Below, piece after piece: positions 12,070 through 23,912 of a stretch of DNA of 64,000 bases. The notes beneath the pieces are model-generated. The model worked only from the letters and a program-made list of their open reading frames with translations, was not told where the DNA came from and made no database searches. Source of the DNA: Demequina muriae (lineage in GTDB: Bacteria; Actinomycetota; Actinomycetes; Actinomycetales; Demequinaceae); contig NZ_JAUHQA010000001.1 of NCBI RefSeq assembly GCF_030418295.1, forward strand, positions 1,550,001 through 1,614,000, read 5' to 3'. The position numbers and the translations under genes were made by a program. Position 1 is the stretch's first letter, and each line of letters begins with the position of its first letter.

Positions 12070-14589
12070 TCAGGGCTCGCAGGCCCATCCGTCCTTGTCG
12101 CGGTCGGACTCGTCGTTCAGGGCGTAAAGGGATGCCGAGACGAAGGTGCTCGTCGTGATGGGGCCGCCCACACGGGTGCCGATCATGTCGCGTACGCTCG
12201 ACGACTTCGCCACGCCATGCGGGTAGTGCTTGCGCATGTCGGTGCAGGACGCATAGTCGATGCCGACGGACTTCTTCACTGCAGAGGTCCGAGTCGCGCT
12301 GGTGTATCCCGACTTGGTGCCGACGACCTTGACTGTGATCGACTTGTACGCATCGGCCGGACGCACCTTGTACGTGCTTGCCGTGGATCCGCTCACGGCC
12401 TTGCCGTTCACGTACCACTGGACCTTCGTCGTCACGGTCCCCGGTCCCCAAGTGCCGCGCTTGACCGTCAGCGTGCTGCCCGCCTTCGCGGTGCCGGTGA
12501 TGGTCGGGGTGGGCGCGACGAGCCTGCGCCAGACGGTCACCGACGCGGAAGTCTTGGACATGGCGGAGTAGCCGGTGCGCGTCGCCGTCGCCTTCACCGT
12601 GATCTTGTGGCCGATGTCGGCCGTCGTGGCCTTGTAGGACCTCGACGTCGCTCCCGAGATGCTCGTGCCGTCCCGATACCACCGGTACGTCACCGAGCCG
12701 GGCGTGGGCGACCAGGTGCCGGCGCTCGCGGTCAGGGTGGAGCCCACGGTGGGCGAGCCCGTGACCTTGGGAGCGGGTGCGGTCGTGAAGACCTTCGCTG
12801 CGGTTCGTGAGTGACTGACCCACGTGCTCGACAGGTACCCCGAGCGCTTCGCTGTGATGGCCACCGAGATCTTGTGGCCTGCATCGGCGGTCGTGAGTCG
12901 GTACGAGGAGCCCGTGGCACCCGTGATCGCCTTGCCGTCGCGGCGCCACTGGTACGTGCTCGCCGACGGCGTGACGCCGTAAGTGGGTGCCTTGATGCTG
13001 ACCGTGCTGCCCGCAGCGAAGGTCCCCGTGAAGTCCGACGTGGTGCGCACGGTGCCGAGGGATCCGAGGACGGTCGTCGAGGGGCCGGTGTAGGTGCGGG
13101 TCTCGTATCCGGCGGCTCGCACGCTCACGCTCACCGACAGCGTCTTGCCCCGGGCCGATGCGGGCAACTGATAGGTCGTGGTGCGGTCCCAGTCGGTGGT
13201 CGCGACGGTGGTGCCATCGATCTTCCACACCGTCTTGAAGGACGGCTGGGTGTCGACGCTGCTGAGCCCCGTCACGGTGACGTGGGGGGTGGTGCCCACC
13301 ACCGCGGGATTGGTGAACGTGATGGTGGGGGACGCGGGCAGTGCGCCGAGCACCGCGGCAGACGCGCTGCCACGGATCTCCTTCTCCACCATGCCGGGCA
13401 GCCAGATGGTCGCGACGGCGCGTGGCCTGAGCCCCATGTGTGTCACTCCGGGTGTGTATGTGGTCCCCCAGCCCAGGTACTGCCCGGTGCCAGCGTCCTC
13501 CCACGTGAAGCTGGGCGTCAGTCCAGCGGGAGCATTGGCCGTGGTGAGCGACGCCGTGAGCGTCTGCCCTACCTTCGAGGTTCCCGAGACCGTGACCGTC
13601 GCCGACAGCGACGCCGGCCAGGCGCACGCCGTCGGACCGGAGCTGGCGACGTGGTCGATCTGCCCGGAGAACGCGTCGCCGTCGTCGAACCGCAGCACCG
13701 ACTGGCCGTAGGGCAGAAACATGGTCTGTGGCCCGAAGCGGTAGGCGTTGGAGGCGGTGGCGGAGAGGACGCTGCCTGCAGGCCCCACAATCTGGGCGGG
13801 GGTGAAGGGGACGCAGCGGGTGACCGGCGCGCCATCGATGAACTGATCCCGTGCGGAGAACTCCTCCAGGGCCGGCATGGCGCCCAGCGCAGACGCATTG
13901 CGCACGGCGTTGCCGTCGACGTCGAGGAAGGCCAGCGACGGGTGGCCGGCGAGCGGGCTGAGGTCCTCCACCCACGCGTACGCGAGGTCGACGACGGTCA
14001 GGCTCGCGAGCTGCGCCAGTGGCGACACGTCCTCGACCAAGGTCTCATCGGCGTACAGCGCCTCGAGCGCGTGGGCGTCGGCGAGCGGGCTCAGGTCCTC
14101 GACATCGGTCGCACCGATGTCGAGAACCGCCAGATCGGGCAGGGCCGCGAACGACGGCAAGGTCGTCAGGGCCCCCGCGTAGAGATCGAGCCAGACGAGC
14201 GTACTCAGGGAGGCGACCGCGGAGATGTCCGTGGCCCCAAGACCCGGCAGGCTCAGGTATTCGAGCTGAGGCAGTGCGGCAAGGGGGGCGATGTCGGTGA
14301 TCTGCGAGGCGGGCTCGATATGCAGCGCGAGGAGATGATTGGCGTGCTGGAGGCCCTCAAGCGTGCTGACCGAGCCGTCGCACTCTAGCGCCTCCAGTGC
14401 GGCGAGCTCCGTCGAGGTGAGCGACGCATCTGCGGGAAGCTCGAGCGCGTCTCGGATGCAGGACGCAAGCGCCGGGTCGGGGATGTCGACGGCGTCGGCC
14501 GCACCCGCCCGAGCAGGCTCGAGCGTGAGCGCGACCACTGCGATGGCGGTGATGGCAGCACCGCGGTAGAAGACGGAAGACAGGACCAT
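12070..14589 (-). CDS. Secreted leucine-rich-repeat / Ig-like repeat / Excalibur-domain protein
   Basis: This 839-residue protein has a signal peptide (about 1-31, ending EPARAGAADA). Residues 60-265 form internalin-like leucine-rich repeats of about 22 residues (recurring LxxLxxLxL and DLSPLA blocks). The middle holds bacterial Ig-like repeats with motifs such as WYRDGTSISGATSRSYKATT and GHKITVKATATRTGY, about 90 residues apart. The last 60 residues are an Excalibur calcium-binding domain ending DRDKDGWACEP. No LPxTG or C-terminal membrane anchor is seen, so it is probably released or wall-associated through its repeats. The start ATG has a GGGGGT SD. Binding to other cells, polysaccharide or host surfaces is plausible but not shown. 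Confidence 0.85.
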   Translation of the reverse strand: MVLSSVFYRGAAITAIAVVALTLEPARAGAADAVDIPDPALASCIRDALELPADASLTSTELAALEALECDGSVSTLEGLQHANHLLALHIEPASQITDIAPLAALPQLEYLSLPGLGATDISAVASLSTLVWLDLYAGALTTLPSFAALPDLAVLDIGATDVEDLSPLADAHALEALYADETLVEDVSPLAQLASLTVVDLAYAWVEDLSPLAGHPSLAFLDVDGNAVRNASALGAMPALEEFSARDQFIDGAPVTRCVPFTPAQIVGPAGSVLSATASNAYRFGPQTMFLPYGQSVLRFDDGDAFSGQIDHVASSGPTACAWPASLSATVTVSGTSKVGQTLTASLTTANAPAGLTPSFTWEDAGTGQYLGWGTTYTPGVTHMGLRPRAVATIWLPGMVEKEIRGSASAAVLGALPASPTITFTNPAVVGTTPHVTVTGLSSVDTQPSFKTVWKIDGTTVATTDWDRTTTYQLPASARGKTLSVSVSVRAAGYETRTYTGPSTTVLGSLGTVRTTSDFTGTFAAGSTVSIKAPTYGVTPSASTYQWRRDGKAITGATGSSYRLTTADAGHKISVAITAKRSGYLSSTWVSHSRTAAKVFTTAPAPKVTGSPTVGSTLTASAGTWSPTPGSVTYRWYRDGTSISGATSRSYKATTADIGHKITVKATATRTGYSAMSKTSASVTVWRRLVAPTPTITGTAKAGSTLTVKRGTWGPGTVTTKVQWYVNGKAVSGSTASTYKVRPADAYKSITVKVVGTKSGYTSATRTSAVKKSVGIDYASCTDMRKHYPHGVAKSSSVRDMIGTRVGGPITTSTFVSASLYALNDESDRDKDGWACEP

Positions 14590-17947: not shown

Positions 17948-18895
17948 TCAGTGGGTGGGTGCGGGTGGCGGCTCGGGCGACGCGCTCGGCGCGGCTGGGG
18001 CCGGACCTGGGCCCGTCGCCTGGCGGCTCGTCCGTGATCGCCGTGCGCGGATGCCGACAACGGTCGCGACCACCAGGACCGCGGCGAGGGCCGCCCAGGG
18101 CAGGAGCACCCCTGCCAGGACCATTACGACCGAGAAGAACGAGACCAGCGCGTTCCAGCCGGACTGCAGGCCGTCCCAGAAGGATTCGGGTGAGTCGTCC
18201 ACGATGACGATGGGTTCGGTGGTGAGCGAAAGTTCGATGGTCGACATCGACACTTGGTCGTCGAGACCCCGCTGCCGGGACTCGAGGCTCTCGAGCTCCG
18301 CCTGGCGACCGGCGAGCTCGTCCTCGAGCGCGATGATGTCCTTGATGTCCTCCGCCTCGAGAAGGAGGCCCTGGATGCGATCCGTGGAGGCACGGAGCGT
18401 CGAGATCCGGGCATCCAGGTCCGTCACTTCGGTGGTGACGTCGCGGGACTCCGTCGCGAATTGGTCGACCGTGCCCAGCGCACGGAGATCATCGACCACG
18501 GCGTCGAGTCGGTCCTGCGGGATGCGGAGCAGGAGCGAGGCGGAGCCCCCGTCGTACTCGTCGGCGGCAGTCTCGTTGCGAGCATCGACACGGCCGCCCG
18601 CGCTCTGCACCATGCCGACGGCTTGGTCGGCGGCCGCGATCGGGTCCTCGACGGTCATGTAGAGCGAGCCCGTGACGATGAGGGAGCGATCGTCGGCGAC
18701 GGTCTCGGTGCCGACGTCCGCACCCGCCTCCTCCTGGACGGCTCCGCCACCTGCGTCTGCGGCGCCGGACCCTTCTGAGTCGAACGCCTCGTCGGACGAC
18801 GAGCAGCCCGCAAGGGCCGCCGCGGCGACGATCAGTCCCACGATGATTCCCGTGCGCCGCATGCGGCCCACGGTCCCGTCCACCTTGTCGGTCAT
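17948..18895 (-). CDS. DUF4349 lipoprotein
   Basis: This envelope protein has about 315 residues. A short cytoplasmic leader is followed by MRRTGIIVGLIVAAAALAGC, a lipoprotein signal with lipobox. The body has the DUF4349 layout: a beta/alpha region (SLIVTGSLYMTVEDPIAAAD and later RIPQDRLDAVVDDLRALG), a coiled coil rich in Glu/Leu (DIIALEDELAGRQAELESLE), a second strand block (STIELSLTT), and a C-terminal membrane helix followed by Arg and a Pro/Ala tail. Start choice is uncertain (18904, 18895 or 18862); none has a clear SD. The function of DUF4349 proteins is unknown. It is divergent from the DUF4397 surface protein gene. Confidence 0.8.
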   Translation of the reverse strand: MTDKVDGTVGRMRRTGIIVGLIVAAAALAGCSSSDEAFDSEGSGAADAGGGAVQEEAGADVGTETVADDRSLIVTGSLYMTVEDPIAAADQAVGMVQSAGGRVDARNETAADEYDGGSASLLLRIPQDRLDAVVDDLRALGTVDQFATESRDVTTEVTDLDARISTLRASTDRIQGLLLEAEDIKDIIALEDELAGRQAELESLESRQRGLDDQVSMSTIELSLTTEPIVIVDDSPESFWDGLQSGWNALVSFFSVVMVLAGVLLPWAALAAVLVVATVVGIRARRSRTSRQATGPGPAPAAPSASPEPPPAPTH

Positions 18896-19076
18896 GGCGC
18901 TCATGCTAGAGAGACGCCTGGCAGAGCGCCATCGTTGGGTCGAGAGTGAGGCCGATTCGCAATCCTTCTCAAGAAAGTTGGGAGTCGCTGCATCCAAACT
19001 GCCGGCTCGGCCGGAAGTACGGGGTGAAGGAGGTCGCAACAGGCGGCCTCCCGAGCTCAGGAGAAGGAGAAGGACC
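18896..19076. promoter_or_regulatory. Divergent intergenic region, DUF4349 / DUF4397
   Basis: This 181-nt region is noticeably less GC-rich around 18955-19000 and contains TTCT-CA-AGAA (near 18966-18975), a small palindrome that could be an operator. It ends in a very strong, purine-rich SD (AGGAGAAGGAGAAGG) for the DUF4397 gene. No promoter boxes can be assigned with confidence. Confidence 0.35.
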
Positions 19077-19889
19077 ATGCGCAAGTCAGCAATTGCCGGC
19101 GTCGCAGCCGGTGCGCTCATCGCCGTCGGAGCCGCCGCCCCCGCCCTCGCAGTCGAGGATGGGATGACGGAGCTCTCCGTGCTTCACGGCATCCCCGACA
19201 CCCCGGTGGACGTGTACGTCAACGGCACGAACACCATCGATGACTTCCAGCCCGGCGACCTCGCCGGCCCGCTCGACCTGGAGCCCGGCACGTACACCGT
19301 CGCGCTCACCGCGACCGACGCGGCCGACGACTCGGAGCCCGTGCTCGGCCCGATCGATATCACCCTCGAGGAGGGCATGAGCTACACCGCTGTCGCTCAC
19401 CTCACCGCTGAGGGCGACCCGGGCGTGAACCTGTTCACGAACGACATCTCCGAGACCGCAGCCGGCGAGGGCCGCCTGACCGTCCGTCACACCGCCGCGG
19501 CTCCCGCGGTCGACGTGTGGGCTGACGGAGCGGTGCTCTTCGAGAACCTCTCGAACCCCGACGAGGTCTCGGGCGATGTCCCCGCCGCCACCTACGAGGC
19601 CGCTGTCTCGCTCACCGGTGAGACCGACCCCGTGCTCGGCCCGACAGACGTCGAGATCGCCGACGGCGTGAACACCATCGTCTACGCCTGGGGCAGCGCT
19701 GAGGCCGGTAACCTCGACCTCGCTGTCCAGACGGTCGACACCCACGCCTCCAGCCCGTCCGAAGTTGCGGCCGGTACCCAGGGCCTCGCGGCTGACCGCG
19801 GCGTCCCGGCGGGAGCGATCGCTGCGATCCTCCTCGCCTTCGCACTCGCGGCAGCAGCCGCAGGGCGAATGGTGACCGCTCGACGCTGA
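19077..19889 (+). CDS. DUF4397 cell-surface protein
   Basis: This 270-residue protein has a Sec signal peptide (residues 1-25, ending APALA). Two DUF4397 half-repeats follow (ELSVLHGIPDTPVDVYVNGT from about 31, and RLTVRHTAAAPAVDVWADG from about 140). After a linker, the C-terminus is a membrane helix (about 245-265) followed by ARR, the layout of a surface-anchored protein. No LPxTG box is visible before the helix, although a class F sortase is encoded next door. The ATG has an exceptionally strong SD, implying high expression. It is the first gene of a probable DUF4397-sortase-sigma-antisigma cluster and is followed by a hairpin terminator. Confidence 0.85.
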   Translation: MRKSAIAGVAAGALIAVGAAAPALAVEDGMTELSVLHGIPDTPVDVYVNGTNTIDDFQPGDLAGPLDLEPGTYTVALTATDAADDSEPVLGPIDITLEEGMSYTAVAHLTAEGDPGVNLFTNDISETAAGEGRLTVRHTAAAPAVDVWADGAVLFENLSNPDEVSGDVPAATYEAAVSLTGETDPVLGPTDVEIADGVNTIVYAWGSAEAGNLDLAVQTVDTHASSPSEVAAGTQGLAADRGVPAGAIAAILLAFALAAAAAGRMVTARR

Positions 19890-19901
19890 CCGTGCGGTCA
19901 C

Positions 19902-19936
19902 GCGGGGGCACGTCCTGACCCAGGGCGTGTCCCCGC
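19902..19936 (+). terminator. Terminator or attenuator hairpin after the DUF4397 gene
   Basis: GCGGGGGCACG (19902-19912) pairs with CGTGTCCCCGC (19926-19936) with one G-U, plus an inner CCTG/CAGG pair. It lies between the DUF4397 gene and the sortase gene and would make the abundant surface protein message end before the downstream genes. Confidence 0.65.
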
Positions 19937-19981
19937 TCCGCTCGTCCTGTCGCCTCGTGCCTGAACGGAGAGGACTCCCAC

Positions 19982-20650
19982 ATGCGCACGCTTCTCGCGC
20001 TCTTCGTGAGCGTCCTGCTCGTCGGATGCGCGGCCGCTGAGGACGGCACGCCGTCGACCTCCCCGTCCTCCCCGTCCGTCGCGAGCGCCCCGCCCGTCGG
20101 TCCGTCCGTCGGGGAGGTCCGGGCACCGGTCTTCCTCGGTGAGGTGGAGATCTCCGACACGTCGCCCGAGACGCTCGCGGAACTGCGGGCAGTCCCGCCC
20201 GAGCGGCTCGTCGTGGACTCTCTCGAGATCGACATGCCGGTGACGTCCGTGGGCCTGGAGGGCGACGGCGCCATGGAGATCCCCGAATCAGCGGCGACTG
20301 CGGGCTGGTACCGCTACGGCCCGGCGCCCGGAGGCGAGGCCGGCAATGCGGTGCTGGCAGCGCATGTCGACGATGCGGTGATCGGTCTGGGCCCCTTCTC
20401 CAGGCTCCTGGACATCGACGAGGGGGCGCGGATCGTCATTGACAGCGCCGACGGCACGGAGACTCCGTACGAGGTCACGCGAGTGGAGAAGACGGACAAG
20501 CGCGAGGTGGACATGGGCCTGGTGTTCGATCGTGCAGGTCCCGCACAGTTGGTGCTTGTCACGTGTGGTGGACGCTTCGACTGGGATACGGGACACTACG
20601 AGGACAACGTCGTGGTCTACGCGACGCCTGTCAACGAGCCGGCGCGGTGA
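19982..20650 (+). CDS. Class F sortase (lipoprotein-type N-terminus)
   Basis: This 222-residue transpeptidase-fold enzyme has a lipobox-like VLLVGC (Cys16) and a Ser/Pro-rich linker. The sortase barrel contains AAHVDD with catalytic His128 and LVTCGGRFDWDTGHYEDNVV with catalytic Cys195; Arg198 is a candidate for the third residue. The TCGGxFD and YxDNVVVYA pattern is that of class F sortases of actinobacteria. It would attach or process surface proteins, the adjacent DUF4397 protein being the obvious candidate substrate. Its TGA overlaps a GTG (GTGA) that opens the sigma-factor frame. Confidence 0.87.
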   Translation: MRTLLALFVSVLLVGCAAAEDGTPSTSPSSPSVASAPPVGPSVGEVRAPVFLGEVEISDTSPETLAELRAVPPERLVVDSLEIDMPVTSVGLEGDGAMEIPESAATAGWYRYGPAPGGEAGNAVLAAHVDDAVIGLGPFSRLLDIDEGARIVIDSADGTETPYEVTRVEKTDKREVDMGLVFDRAGPAQLVLVTCGGRFDWDTGHYEDNVVVYATPVNEPAR

Positions 20651-20682
20651 GTGCCGTCATGATCGCGAAGGAGCCCGTCCGG

Positions 20683-21240
20683 ATGGCCGTTGTCCCGTCG
20701 TCGCCGCGCGACCGCGACGACACGGCGCGTGCCTTCGCAGACGGCGAGGACGGAGCGCTCGAGGAGCTCTACCGCGACCTGTCGCCCTTGGTGTACACGA
20801 TGGCGGTGCGCTCGCTGAGCTCCACGGCCGATGCCGAGGACGTCACGCAGCAGACCTTCGTCTCCGCGTGGCGCGGACGTTCGGGATTCGACCCGGTACG
20901 GGGCGACCTGCGGGGCTGGGTGGTGGGCATCGCCAAGCGGCGCATCGCCGATGCGCTCGAGGCTCGGTCGCGCGAGCATCGGCGGCTCGAGGCAGTCAAG
21001 GAGTCGACTCCGGCCGACGCTGCGACGCCGGACGATGCCGACAGCGTGCTGCTCGCGTACGAGGTGGATGCGCTTGGTCCGCCGCGCGCGACGATCGTCT
21101 CGCTCGCCTTCTTCGAGGGGGAGACGCACGAGCAGATCGCCAGGCGCCTCGACATGCCGCTCGGCACGGTGAAGAGCCATATCAGACGTGGATTGATCGA
21201 ACTGCGAGACCGATGGGAGGTGTCCGATGTCGCATCTTGA
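20683..21240 (+). CDS. ECF RNA polymerase sigma factor
   Basis: This 185-residue sigma factor has region 2 (LEELYRDLSPLVYTMAVRSL, DAEDVTQQTFVSAW) and region 4 (FFEGETHEQIARRLDMPLGTVKSHIRRGL). Starts at GTG 20647 (overlapping the sortase stop) and ATG 20659 are possible, but ATG 20683 has a clear AAGGAG SD 9 nt upstream and is preferred. The stop overlaps the anti-sigma start by 14 nt. With its RskA-like anti-sigma it would respond to an envelope signal and may drive the sortase/DUF4397 genes beside it. Confidence 0.93.
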   Translation: MAVVPSSPRDRDDTARAFADGEDGALEELYRDLSPLVYTMAVRSLSSTADAEDVTQQTFVSAWRGRSGFDPVRGDLRGWVVGIAKRRIADALEARSREHRRLEAVKESTPADAATPDDADSVLLAYEVDALGPPRATIVSLAFFEGETHEQIARRLDMPLGTVKSHIRRGLIELRDRWEVSDVAS

Positions 21241-21985
21241 TGATGATGTGCTGGCCGAGCTGGCGCTCGGCGGCGGCAGCGCGTCGGACGCAGAGCATGC
21301 CGCCACCTGCACTGAGTGCAGGGGCGAGCTCGAGTCGCTGCGCGCGATGGTCGCGCGGGTGCAGATGGCCGGACCAGGCGGGGATCTGCTCACGCCCCCC
21401 GATCGCGTGTGGAGCGCGATCGCGGCGGAGGTCGACTCCGAGAACGCGGCTCTCGACAGCCCCCGAGATGCCGAGCACGAGAGCGACGGGTCCACGCCTG
21501 CTCTCGCGACCGCAGGCGACGACGACCTGGCCGTACGCAGGCCCCGACGGGGCTCCCGGTGGTCGCTCGCCGCAGCCGCGGCGGCGGGCGTGGTGGTGGG
21601 CGGAATCGGAGTCGGCGCAGCGCTGGGGATCAACGGCGGCGACGAGCCGGCGGCCATCGTGGCGCAGGCGCCGCTGACCGATCTCTCGACGGAGGCGCCC
21701 GCAGGCGACGCCGTCGTGGAGACGCGAGACGACGGCACCCAGGTGATCGTGATCGACACGGACACACGAGACGTGGACGACGCGTACCTCGAGGTGTGGC
21801 TCATCGACGAGGCGATCGAGGGCATGGTGAGCCTCGGTCACCTCACTGGTGGCTCCGGCGAGTTCGTGCTCCCACCGGGCTTCGACATCTCGGACTTCCC
21901 CATCGTCGACATCTCCGTGGAGCCGCTCGATGGCGTGCCCACGCACAGCGGTGACTCCGTGACGCGCGGAGTGCTGGAGACCTGA
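21227..21985 (+). CDS. Zinc-finger anti-sigma factor (RskA-like)
   Basis: This 252-residue membrane protein has a cytoplasmic anti-sigma domain with a zinc-binding HxxxCxxC (His24, Cys28, Cys31), one membrane helix (about 112-135) and an extracytoplasmic RskA-type C-terminal domain (DDAYLEVWLIDEAIEGMVSLG). It would hold the preceding ECF sigma at the membrane until regulated proteolysis releases it. The overlapping start ensures coupled, stoichiometric translation. Confidence 0.93.
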   Translation: MSHLDDDVLAELALGGGSASDAEHAATCTECRGELESLRAMVARVQMAGPGGDLLTPPDRVWSAIAAEVDSENAALDSPRDAEHESDGSTPALATAGDDDLAVRRPRRGSRWSLAAAAAAGVVVGGIGVGAALGINGGDEPAAIVAQAPLTDLSTEAPAGDAVVETRDDGTQVIVIDTDTRDVDDAYLEVWLIDEAIEGMVSLGHLTGGSGEFVLPPGFDISDFPIVDISVEPLDGVPTHSGDSVTRGVLET

Positions 21986-22082
21986 CAGCACCCCCTCCGT
22001 GTGATGCCTCCTCCCGAGTGGGGTACGCTCACGTCCCATTACCCATCTCGCGTTGAGAAGGGTGGAACAGGGAGAGTGCATC

Positions 22083-22493
22083 GTGGCGGAGGAGCGGACG
22101 TGGGTGACGCCGGAGGCGCATCGGCGACTGGTGGACGAGCTCGAGGGCCTCACCGCCCGCGGCGATGACGCGGACGCTTCCGCGCGTGCCCGCATCGTCG
22201 AGCTTCGCACCCTCCTCGACTCGGTCGAGGTCGGCACCCGCCCGGACGACGGTCTCGTCGAGACCGGCATGCGCGTCACGGTGCGCAGCGTCGAGGACGG
22301 CACTGAGACCGCCTTTGTGCTGGGCGACCGCGCTCTCCTGGGCCACGACATCGCTGGAGACGTCACGGTGTTCTCGCCGGAGTCCCCGGTGGGCGCGGCC
22401 GTCGACGGCCGTCACGTGGGCGACCAGGTCACCTTCACCACCCCGCGCGGCGATCGAGACATCGTCATCGTCGGCGCGACTCCCGTCGGCTGA
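22083..22493 (+). CDS. Short GreA/GreB-family protein
   Basis: This 136-residue protein has the C-terminal GreA/GreB FKBP-like domain: VETGMRVTVRS, ALLGHDIAGDVTVFSPESPVGAAVDG and GDQVTFTTP. The N-terminal coiled coil is shortened to about 45 residues compared with 75 in GreA, and the acidic tip is not clear. It may bind RNA polymerase in the secondary channel without rescuing backtracked complexes. The GTG at 22083 has a GGGAGAG SD; a TTG further upstream at 22053 is less likely. Authentic GreA is presumably elsewhere. Confidence 0.8.
   Translation: MAEERTWVTPEAHRRLVDELEGLTARGDDADASARARIVELRTLLDSVEVGTRPDDGLVETGMRVTVRSVEDGTETAFVLGDRALLGHDIAGDVTVFSPESPVGAAVDGRHVGDQVTFTTPRGDRDIVIVGATPVG

Positions 22494-23912
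<1,419 letters not shown>

Follow-up and report, generated by a model that had tools for sequence, protein, structure and literature searches.

What does a sortase act on when the surface protein encoded beside it carries no LPxTG? The question is raised by four consecutive genes in a 64,000-nucleotide stretch of the Demequina muriae contig NZ_JAUHQA010000001.1 (the window, whose first letter is position 1). D. muriae is a bacterium of soil and sediment, and the host genome has 2.8 Mb. The genes encode a DUF4397 surface protein, a class F-type sortase, an extracytoplasmic function (ECF) sigma factor and an anti-sigma factor; the best explanation for them, which we consider probable, is an operon under sigma-factor control that encodes a single surface protein together with a private sortase with a non-LPxTG signal. 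The original prediction, made from the DNA letters, had named these four genes, and they were found at the coordinates and, in Pfam and NCBIfam searches, with the domains claimed. The genes and the parts of the surface protein on which the argument turns are as follows.

19077 to 19889, plus strand: DUF4397 surface protein of 270 amino acids, with a signal peptide, two beta-sandwich domains, a linker, a helix and a terminal ARR.
19755 to 19784, plus strand: proposed class F sorting signal P227-S-E-V-A-A-G-T-Q-G236, with a predicted cut between A232 and G233.
19803 to 19886, plus strand: C-terminal membrane helix and basic tail, from residue 243; the helix is also present in the structural model.
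19982 to 20650, plus strand: class F-type sortase of 222 amino acids, with His128, Cys195 and Asn209 and a lipobox-like Cys16.
20647 to 21240, plus strand: ECF sigma factor, SigK-like, with a GTG start and without cysteines.
21227 to 21985, plus strand: RskA-like anti-sigma factor with an RskA_C domain and an H-x3-C-x2-C motif.

The window protein ends in PSEVAAGTQGLAADRG, followed by a hydrophobic helix and ARR, and the tail peptide that contains the signal is PSEVAAGTQGLA. No LPXTG-like pentapeptide is found in this tail, so the earlier description of a C-terminal helix plus ARR without LPxTG was correct. By eye the protein nevertheless has the layout of a wall-sorted one, with a signal peptide, a C-terminal helix that is also in the model, and a basic tail. 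When related DUF4397 proteins are compared, the conserved element is P-x-x-[VI]-x-[AST]-G-x-x-G, followed by a helix and a basic end. Across 60 aligned relatives P227 and G233 are invariant (60/60) and G236 is kept in at least 90%. The pattern [VI]x[ASTC]GxxG occurs within the last 60 residues in 75 of 78 module proteins, against 762 of 15,600 shuffled tails (4.9%). With the motif placed as well as possible in each of the 78 proteins, P is found in 78, V or I in 78, A, S or T in 77, G in 78 and the second G in 77, although the rule for placing it was biased towards P and the second G, whose counts therefore lean upward.

The signal was scored in three forms, a strict one, a core form ([VI]x[AST]G) and a relaxed form ([VIAM]x[ASTG]G). 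In a phylum-wide sample of DUF4397 proteins from 296 genomes, 54 loci were tried and 49 were scored, including the window copy (L248). Where a class F sortase lies downstream of the DUF4397 gene, the strict form is present in 19 of 22 proteins and the core form in all 22; among DUF4397 proteins without a class F neighbour, some of them judged on about 1.5 kb of flank, the figures are 0/27 and 4/27. The four core matches are among five tails without a sortase that end in [LIM]PDTGG (L294-L298). Five loci went unscored, four because a home-made profile found no DUF4397 (L268, L289, L290 and L292) and one because its open reading frame (ORF) was cut (L299); L268 and L290 have a sortase and the strict signal, L292 is a fusion and L289 is uninformative. 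At L292 (G095:C355, 1454-3301) DUF4397, an SGALRTGGGG signal, a helix, a basic stretch and a class F sortase lie in one 616-residue frame, which is either a natural fusion or merely a frame without a stop.

Natural losses point the same way. Six module-type DUF4397 proteins have no adjacent sortase, and all six are without the signal: in five (L413-L417) the protein stops directly after the second domain, with neither signal nor helix, and in the sixth (L141, from the Demequina genome G021) the helix and an RRKK are kept and the motif is lost. The sigma and anti-sigma genes are retained in four of the six (L141 and L415-L417). Three more genes that appear to lack a sortase, all of them signal-bearing, sit at contig ends. 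When ORF tails in general are counted, many of whose frames are not genes, a signal is borne by 2 of 9868 distinct tails away from class F sortases versus 130 of 1360 near them; the two distant ones are a Demequina DUF4397 protein at a contig end (L147) and one in L065.

The association extends beyond DUF4397. Among 30 class F loci taken one per genome (L302-L331), an adjacent protein that has a helix and a basic tail shows the strict form at 17 of them, the core form at 24 and the relaxed form at 28, and several of these partners have no DUF4397 match. A further 40 class F loci, unused before and hand-picked down the ranking, gave 17 strict, 25 core and 33 relaxed; the 20 of them with the full module gave 13, 17 and 18. 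On re-reading the misses, L348 and L350 add strict signals, L375 has Leu for Val, and L368 and L378 stop at contig ends. Taken together, these comparisons of sequences show that signal and sortase go together. The original prediction had offered two options, that the sortase uses an unusual signal or that it serves other substrates, and the first is favoured by 19/22 against 0/27, the six losses and the 2/9868 distant tails.

Several points weigh against this. The sequences are related, as are those behind all of our counts, and the p-values of the phylum sample (8e-11 for the strict form, 4e-10 for the core) therefore overstate independence. The motif was first picked from the data; only the 40 fresh loci were untouched, and half of these have the same module. 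The 20 fresh loci without the full module gave only 4 strict, 8 core and 15 relaxed signals, with none in 5, and the signal is therefore looser outside the module; L376 and L379 have no partner, and the signals of L364 and L377 are doubtful on reading. In three of the 22 sortase-linked proteins of the phylum sample the tail reads V-N-T-G and the second Gly is absent. L414 is a tentative case among the six losses, as its contig ends about 360 bp further on, and genome G035 keeps the signal with only a sortase remnant. From the literature, Cutibacterium acnes SrtF, the sole class F enzyme studied, takes LPXTG (PMC13257024, PMC7913060), and no sporangium phenotype was seen in an Actinoplanes quadruple class F mutant (PMC13251363).

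The host genome itself offers an internal comparison. A C-terminal profile finds nine matches in it, and the motif is covered in the window protein only (6.8e-17); in the other eight the motif before the terminal helix is absent by reading. Another protein of this genome (L335, G000:C1:171367), found by the tail profile via its helix, ends GLPAGAIAAV...WRRR and is possibly anchored by a different route. The genome's second class F gene (L051, G000:C1:2477625) has a neighbour whose tail reads GGVDTGDAA (PIGGVDTGDAADT-like), followed by a helix and RRR; judged by its sequence, this is a candidate for a separate enzyme-substrate pair without sigma genes.

Is the enzyme a class F sortase? Membership of the sortase superfamily is clear (PF04203, 73.3 bits against a gathering cut-off of 26.6), and class F is the nearest NCBIfam class (NF033748, 131.4 bits, E 2e-38; the next class, GN, scores 21.7). 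The score does not reach the curated NF033748 cut-off of 166, and we therefore call the enzyme class F-type, a divergent branch. The model of its catalytic domain has a sortase fold (pLDDT 87.9; best Foldseek match 5k9a, E 1.8e-9), and the catalytic part of 165 residues is 93% identical to the Demequina aestuarii counterpart. The His, Cys and Asn (H71, C138 and N152 of A1) are invariant in 21 of 21 sequences, with the Asn at the position of the catalytic Arg of class A; 158 of 181 class F sequences fit this Asn pattern, and the window enzyme combines a nearest match to class F with His, Cys and Asn for Arg. The Arg-to-Asn change has already been reported for actinobacterial class F enzymes (PMC6998099) and is not claimed here as new. 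A catalytic Arg at the Y-x-D-N position was also considered and rejected, an Arg lying two residues before the Asn in 23 of 158 sequences.

The window enzyme thus resembles C. acnes SrtF in its nearest profile (131 bits) and in its His, Cys and Asn for Arg, and differs from it in the proposed signal, [VI]-x-[AST]-G-x-x-G in place of LPXTG. Streptomyces class E sortases and their LAXTG chaplins (PMC5148588) are a parallel in that an actinobacterial sortase uses a non-LPXTG signal on surface proteins; here both the sortase class and the signal are different, and the substrate and a sigma pair share one operon. A further likeness is to two secreted proteins of Actinoplanes missouriensis encoded beside SrtF1 and SrtF4, AMIS_11010 and AMIS_36440, which have a signal peptide, helix and basic tail and no known pentapeptide, and which the authors suspected as substrates (PMC13251363). 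We predict that both carry a signal of the [VI]-x-[TAS]-G type. It seems that a looser signal around [GSA]-[VI]-x-[TAS]-G serves many other actinobacterial class F sortases, each with an adjacent substrate gene. A more general proposal, to which we give somewhat less than an even chance, is that the actinobacterial class F code approximates [GSA]-[VI]-x-[TAS]-G-x-[GA]-[GST], read by enzymes with a His-Cys-Asn site and usually a private substrate, with a one-operon sigma switch sensing and restoring a single coat protein in the present case.

The surface protein belongs to DUF4397 (PF14344, 113.2 bits over two stretches, gathering cut-off 30.6), and a purine-rich stretch precedes its ATG. In its model (pLDDT 89.6) two beta-sandwich domains follow one another, then comes a stretch of low confidence in which the signal lies, and finally the helix. 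Among solved structures, the extracellular domains of PepT1 and PepT2 have the closest fold (best E 1.2e-6); apart from pointing to a tandem Ig-like module, this modelled likeness tells little about function.

The four genes form a conserved cassette, real and correctly placed. Using the sortase alignment as query against one genome per species, we found at least 574 relatives and kept the best 80, from named genomes, which are the closest relatives of the sortase itself; because the query was the sortase alone, the presence of the other genes served as the test. In these best 80, sigma and anti-sigma genes adjoin the sortase in all 80 and DUF4397 in 78, the remaining two contigs ending 270 and 293 bases before the match. 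They come from Demequina, Cellulomonas, Actinotalea, Sanguibacter, Oerskovia, many Microbacteriaceae, Klenkia and members of the Nitriliruptoria. The conserved linkage on which the earlier idea had been staked beforehand thus holds, as does its description of a module with a sigma/anti-sigma pair of its own, the gene order being kept. In 35 stretches around relatives' sortase matches (L031-L065), all four genes are present in 20 (L031-L049 and L061), DUF4397 and sortase only in three (L050, L059 and L062), and a sortase without DUF4397 in 12.

A DUF4349 lipoprotein divergent to the genes had been put forward as the sensor side. In a one-sequence search, 10 of the 80 loci have DUF4349 within about 5 kb of the module; these 10 all belong to the 19 loci from Demequina or Demequinaceae, and the remaining 61 loci gave no such match. 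In several Demequina the gene is elsewhere or was not found within the stretch examined. We rejected it as a module part. The anti-sigma factor, described as a zinc-finger RskA-like protein, does have the RskA_C domain (PF10099, 55.4 bits, cut-off 29.4) and an H-x3-C-x2-C motif at residues 24-31 that is shared by 70 of the best 80 relatives, although the Pfam search returned no zinc-finger match. The last three genes overlap, as had been said, by 4 bp between sortase and sigma (given the GTG start; an alternative ATG lies at 20659) and by 14 bp between sigma and anti-sigma, and a gap of 92 bp separates DUF4397 from the sortase.

What, then, controls the operon? The nearest NCBIfam model of the sigma factor is SigK (NF007228), at 106.5 bits against a cut-off of 226, and the protein is therefore named SigK-like only. 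From the gene order we infer that the anti-sigma factor binds and inhibits it. A candidate promoter lies upstream:

18989 to 19019, plus strand: predicted SigK-like promoter, TGCATCC (18989-18995), N16, CGGAAGTA (19012-19019).

The site ends 57 bp ahead of the DUF4397 start codon, and we take it to resemble the mycobacterial SigK promoter. A GCATCC-N16 site precedes DUF4397 in 77 of the 78 named relatives, with 4 to 8 of 8 bases matching in the downstream half and all 8 in 18 of them; the sole exception, L197, reads TGCATCT in a contig also seen as L155. In the host genome TGCATCC-N16-CGGAAGTA has a single exact match, before these genes. One site with one mismatch lies at C1:1882639, the reversed control also giving one per strand; one own-genome match list contains a single two-mismatch site and lacks the site at C1:1882639. 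At up to three mismatches there are 67 and 76 sites, under the 119 and 140 of the reversed control. A large regulon in this genome is thus unsupported, with one exact site and near-matches at or below the control rate. Judged by its conservation, the sigma factor may be inferred to use this nearly unique site. SigK sites are conserved among Actinobacteria (PMC7509140), and no sigma-70 promoter was found between 18800 and 22600.

Among 41 Demequina genomes, 35 have the site at no more than one mismatch, and 26 of their 36 exact sites stand ahead of DUF4397. Of the others, four precede a small secreted protein, three a polyprenyl synthetase gene and one a polysaccharide tyrosine kinase-like gene; one has no clear target, and one in G021 sits between DUF4397 and sigma. 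The small protein, of about 55-77 residues, begins MKRII, has two cysteines in its mature part and lies behind the shared promoter in six Demequina genomes (L130, L134, L144, L148, L149 and L150). It is likely a second regulon member in Demequina; no MKRII-type protein was seen behind such a site in the host genome. The polyprenyl synthetase gene lies about 116-217 bp downstream of a promoter-like site in three Demequina genomes (L125, L140 and L145).

The arrangement recalls SigK/RskA of mycobacteria and other Actinobacteria, both in the nearest sigma model and RskA_C domain and in the targeting of surface proteins, there MPT70 and MPT83 (PMC7509140). It differs in a sigma factor that is below the SigK cut-off and has no cysteines, in a target that is DUF4397 with its own sortase, and in a predicted regulon of one operon. 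At three sample positions (L239/L294, L240/L295 and L242/L296) a DUF4397 protein ending in [LIM]PDTGG lies beside a divergent sigma/anti-sigma pair with no class F sortase. The link between sigma and DUF4397 may be older than that with the sortase.

On the reading that we prefer, an envelope signal would inactivate the RskA-like anti-sigma factor and free the SigK-like sigma factor, as the family suggests, and the freed factor would transcribe its own operon from the conserved and nearly unique TGCATCC-N16-CGGAAGTA. The main product would be a secreted protein of two beta-sandwich domains, its message possibly kept above that of the sortase by the hairpin behind DUF4397. The class F-type sortase would then recognise P-x-x-[VI]-x-[AST]-G-x-x-G, cut between [AST] and G (A232|G233) by analogy with LPxT|G, and fix the protein to the envelope. 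Since all of these genes share one operon, freeing the sigma factor would increase the coat protein, its anchor and the anti-sigma factor at once, closing the loop. The signal-responsiveness and envelope remodelling of the original prediction are at most suggested by the RskA-type family.

Conservation within a single family cannot separate recognition from structure, and the genome does encode one class E sortase (C1:1354068). The motif might accordingly be a structural or linker feature, with that enzyme or another anchoring DUF4397 and the neighbouring sortase serving other proteins. We regard this as rather improbable: the tail is absent from DUF4397 proteins that lack a class F neighbour, tails of a similar kind are found on unrelated proteins next to other class F sortases, the profile's motif is in no other protein of the genome, and in the model the stretch lies outside the folded domains, in a low-confidence linker. 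It is more improbable still that shared regulation is all that keeps the genes together, with the sigma factor controlling a surface protein and a general sortase that act independently. The parts are separable, as L141 and L415-L417 have sigma, anti-sigma and DUF4397 without the sortase, yet loci that lack the sortase lack the signal as well, and a one-frame fusion exists (L292).

A different outcome of the same recognition, that the sortase cuts the signal for shedding or for linking copies to one another and that the anti-sigma factor senses the cut or uncut tail, we consider unlikely, if less so than either of these. Sequence does not distinguish wall transfer from release or polymerisation, Asn for the catalytic Arg could mean a different reaction, and sigma, anti-sigma, enzyme and substrate do share an operon. 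However, a helix and basic tail after the motif are the usual layout of a wall-sorted protein, and the sortase-less homologues are simply secreted or have a plain helix, as expected if the sortase decides surface retention.

Two RNA stem-loops are predicted along the operon:

19029 to 19051, plus strand: leader stem-loop at the start of the predicted mRNA, GGAGGUCGC / GCGGCCUCC, z -2.57.
19902 to 19936, plus strand: intergenic stem-loop between DUF4397 and sortase, with a 16-bp stem and no T run, z -3.63.

The intergenic one recurs: the 80 bases behind the DUF4397 stop have a mean z of -2.79, with z below -2 in 59 of 79 loci, compared with controls of 8/78 behind the anti-sigma gene and 1/78 inside DUF4397 (mononucleotide shuffles; in some loci the 80 bases include sortase coding sequence). 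This hairpin is not terminator-like, and no intrinsic terminator was found from 18800 to 22600. The leader hairpin has CGCA at its loop and turns up again, in Demequina, in the leaders of other genes that share the promoter. Single-sequence folding against mononucleotide shuffles gave z below -1 for 25 of the 39 regulon leaders from Demequina and for 25 of 60 others; RNAalifold gave no consensus leader structure, which is probably due to unequal loop lengths.

Already known are class F sortases and their Arg-to-Asn change, as well as DUF4397 and SigK/RskA. In a literature search of partial texts we found no class F signal other than the LPXTG of C. acnes SrtF, no description of this cassette and none pairing 'class F sortase' with 'DUF4397'; looking for ECF combined with sortase and fasciclin gave nothing either. 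Two papers call it unknown what class F sortases do (PMC13251363, PMC6998099), and suspected substrates beside class F genes were set aside for want of a known pentapeptide (PMC13251363). A concrete motif, if true, would turn orphan class F enzymes into testable enzyme-substrate pairs and allow substrates to be predicted across Actinobacteria, and a sortase without LPxTG cross-reaction might serve protein engineers. The sigma part, if true, would offer a compact example of a regulator that serves only a single surface protein and its anchor.

Elsewhere in the window, 12070-14589 on the minus strand encodes a large secreted protein that, by reading, has leucine-rich repeats and an Excalibur calcium-binding-like C-terminus.

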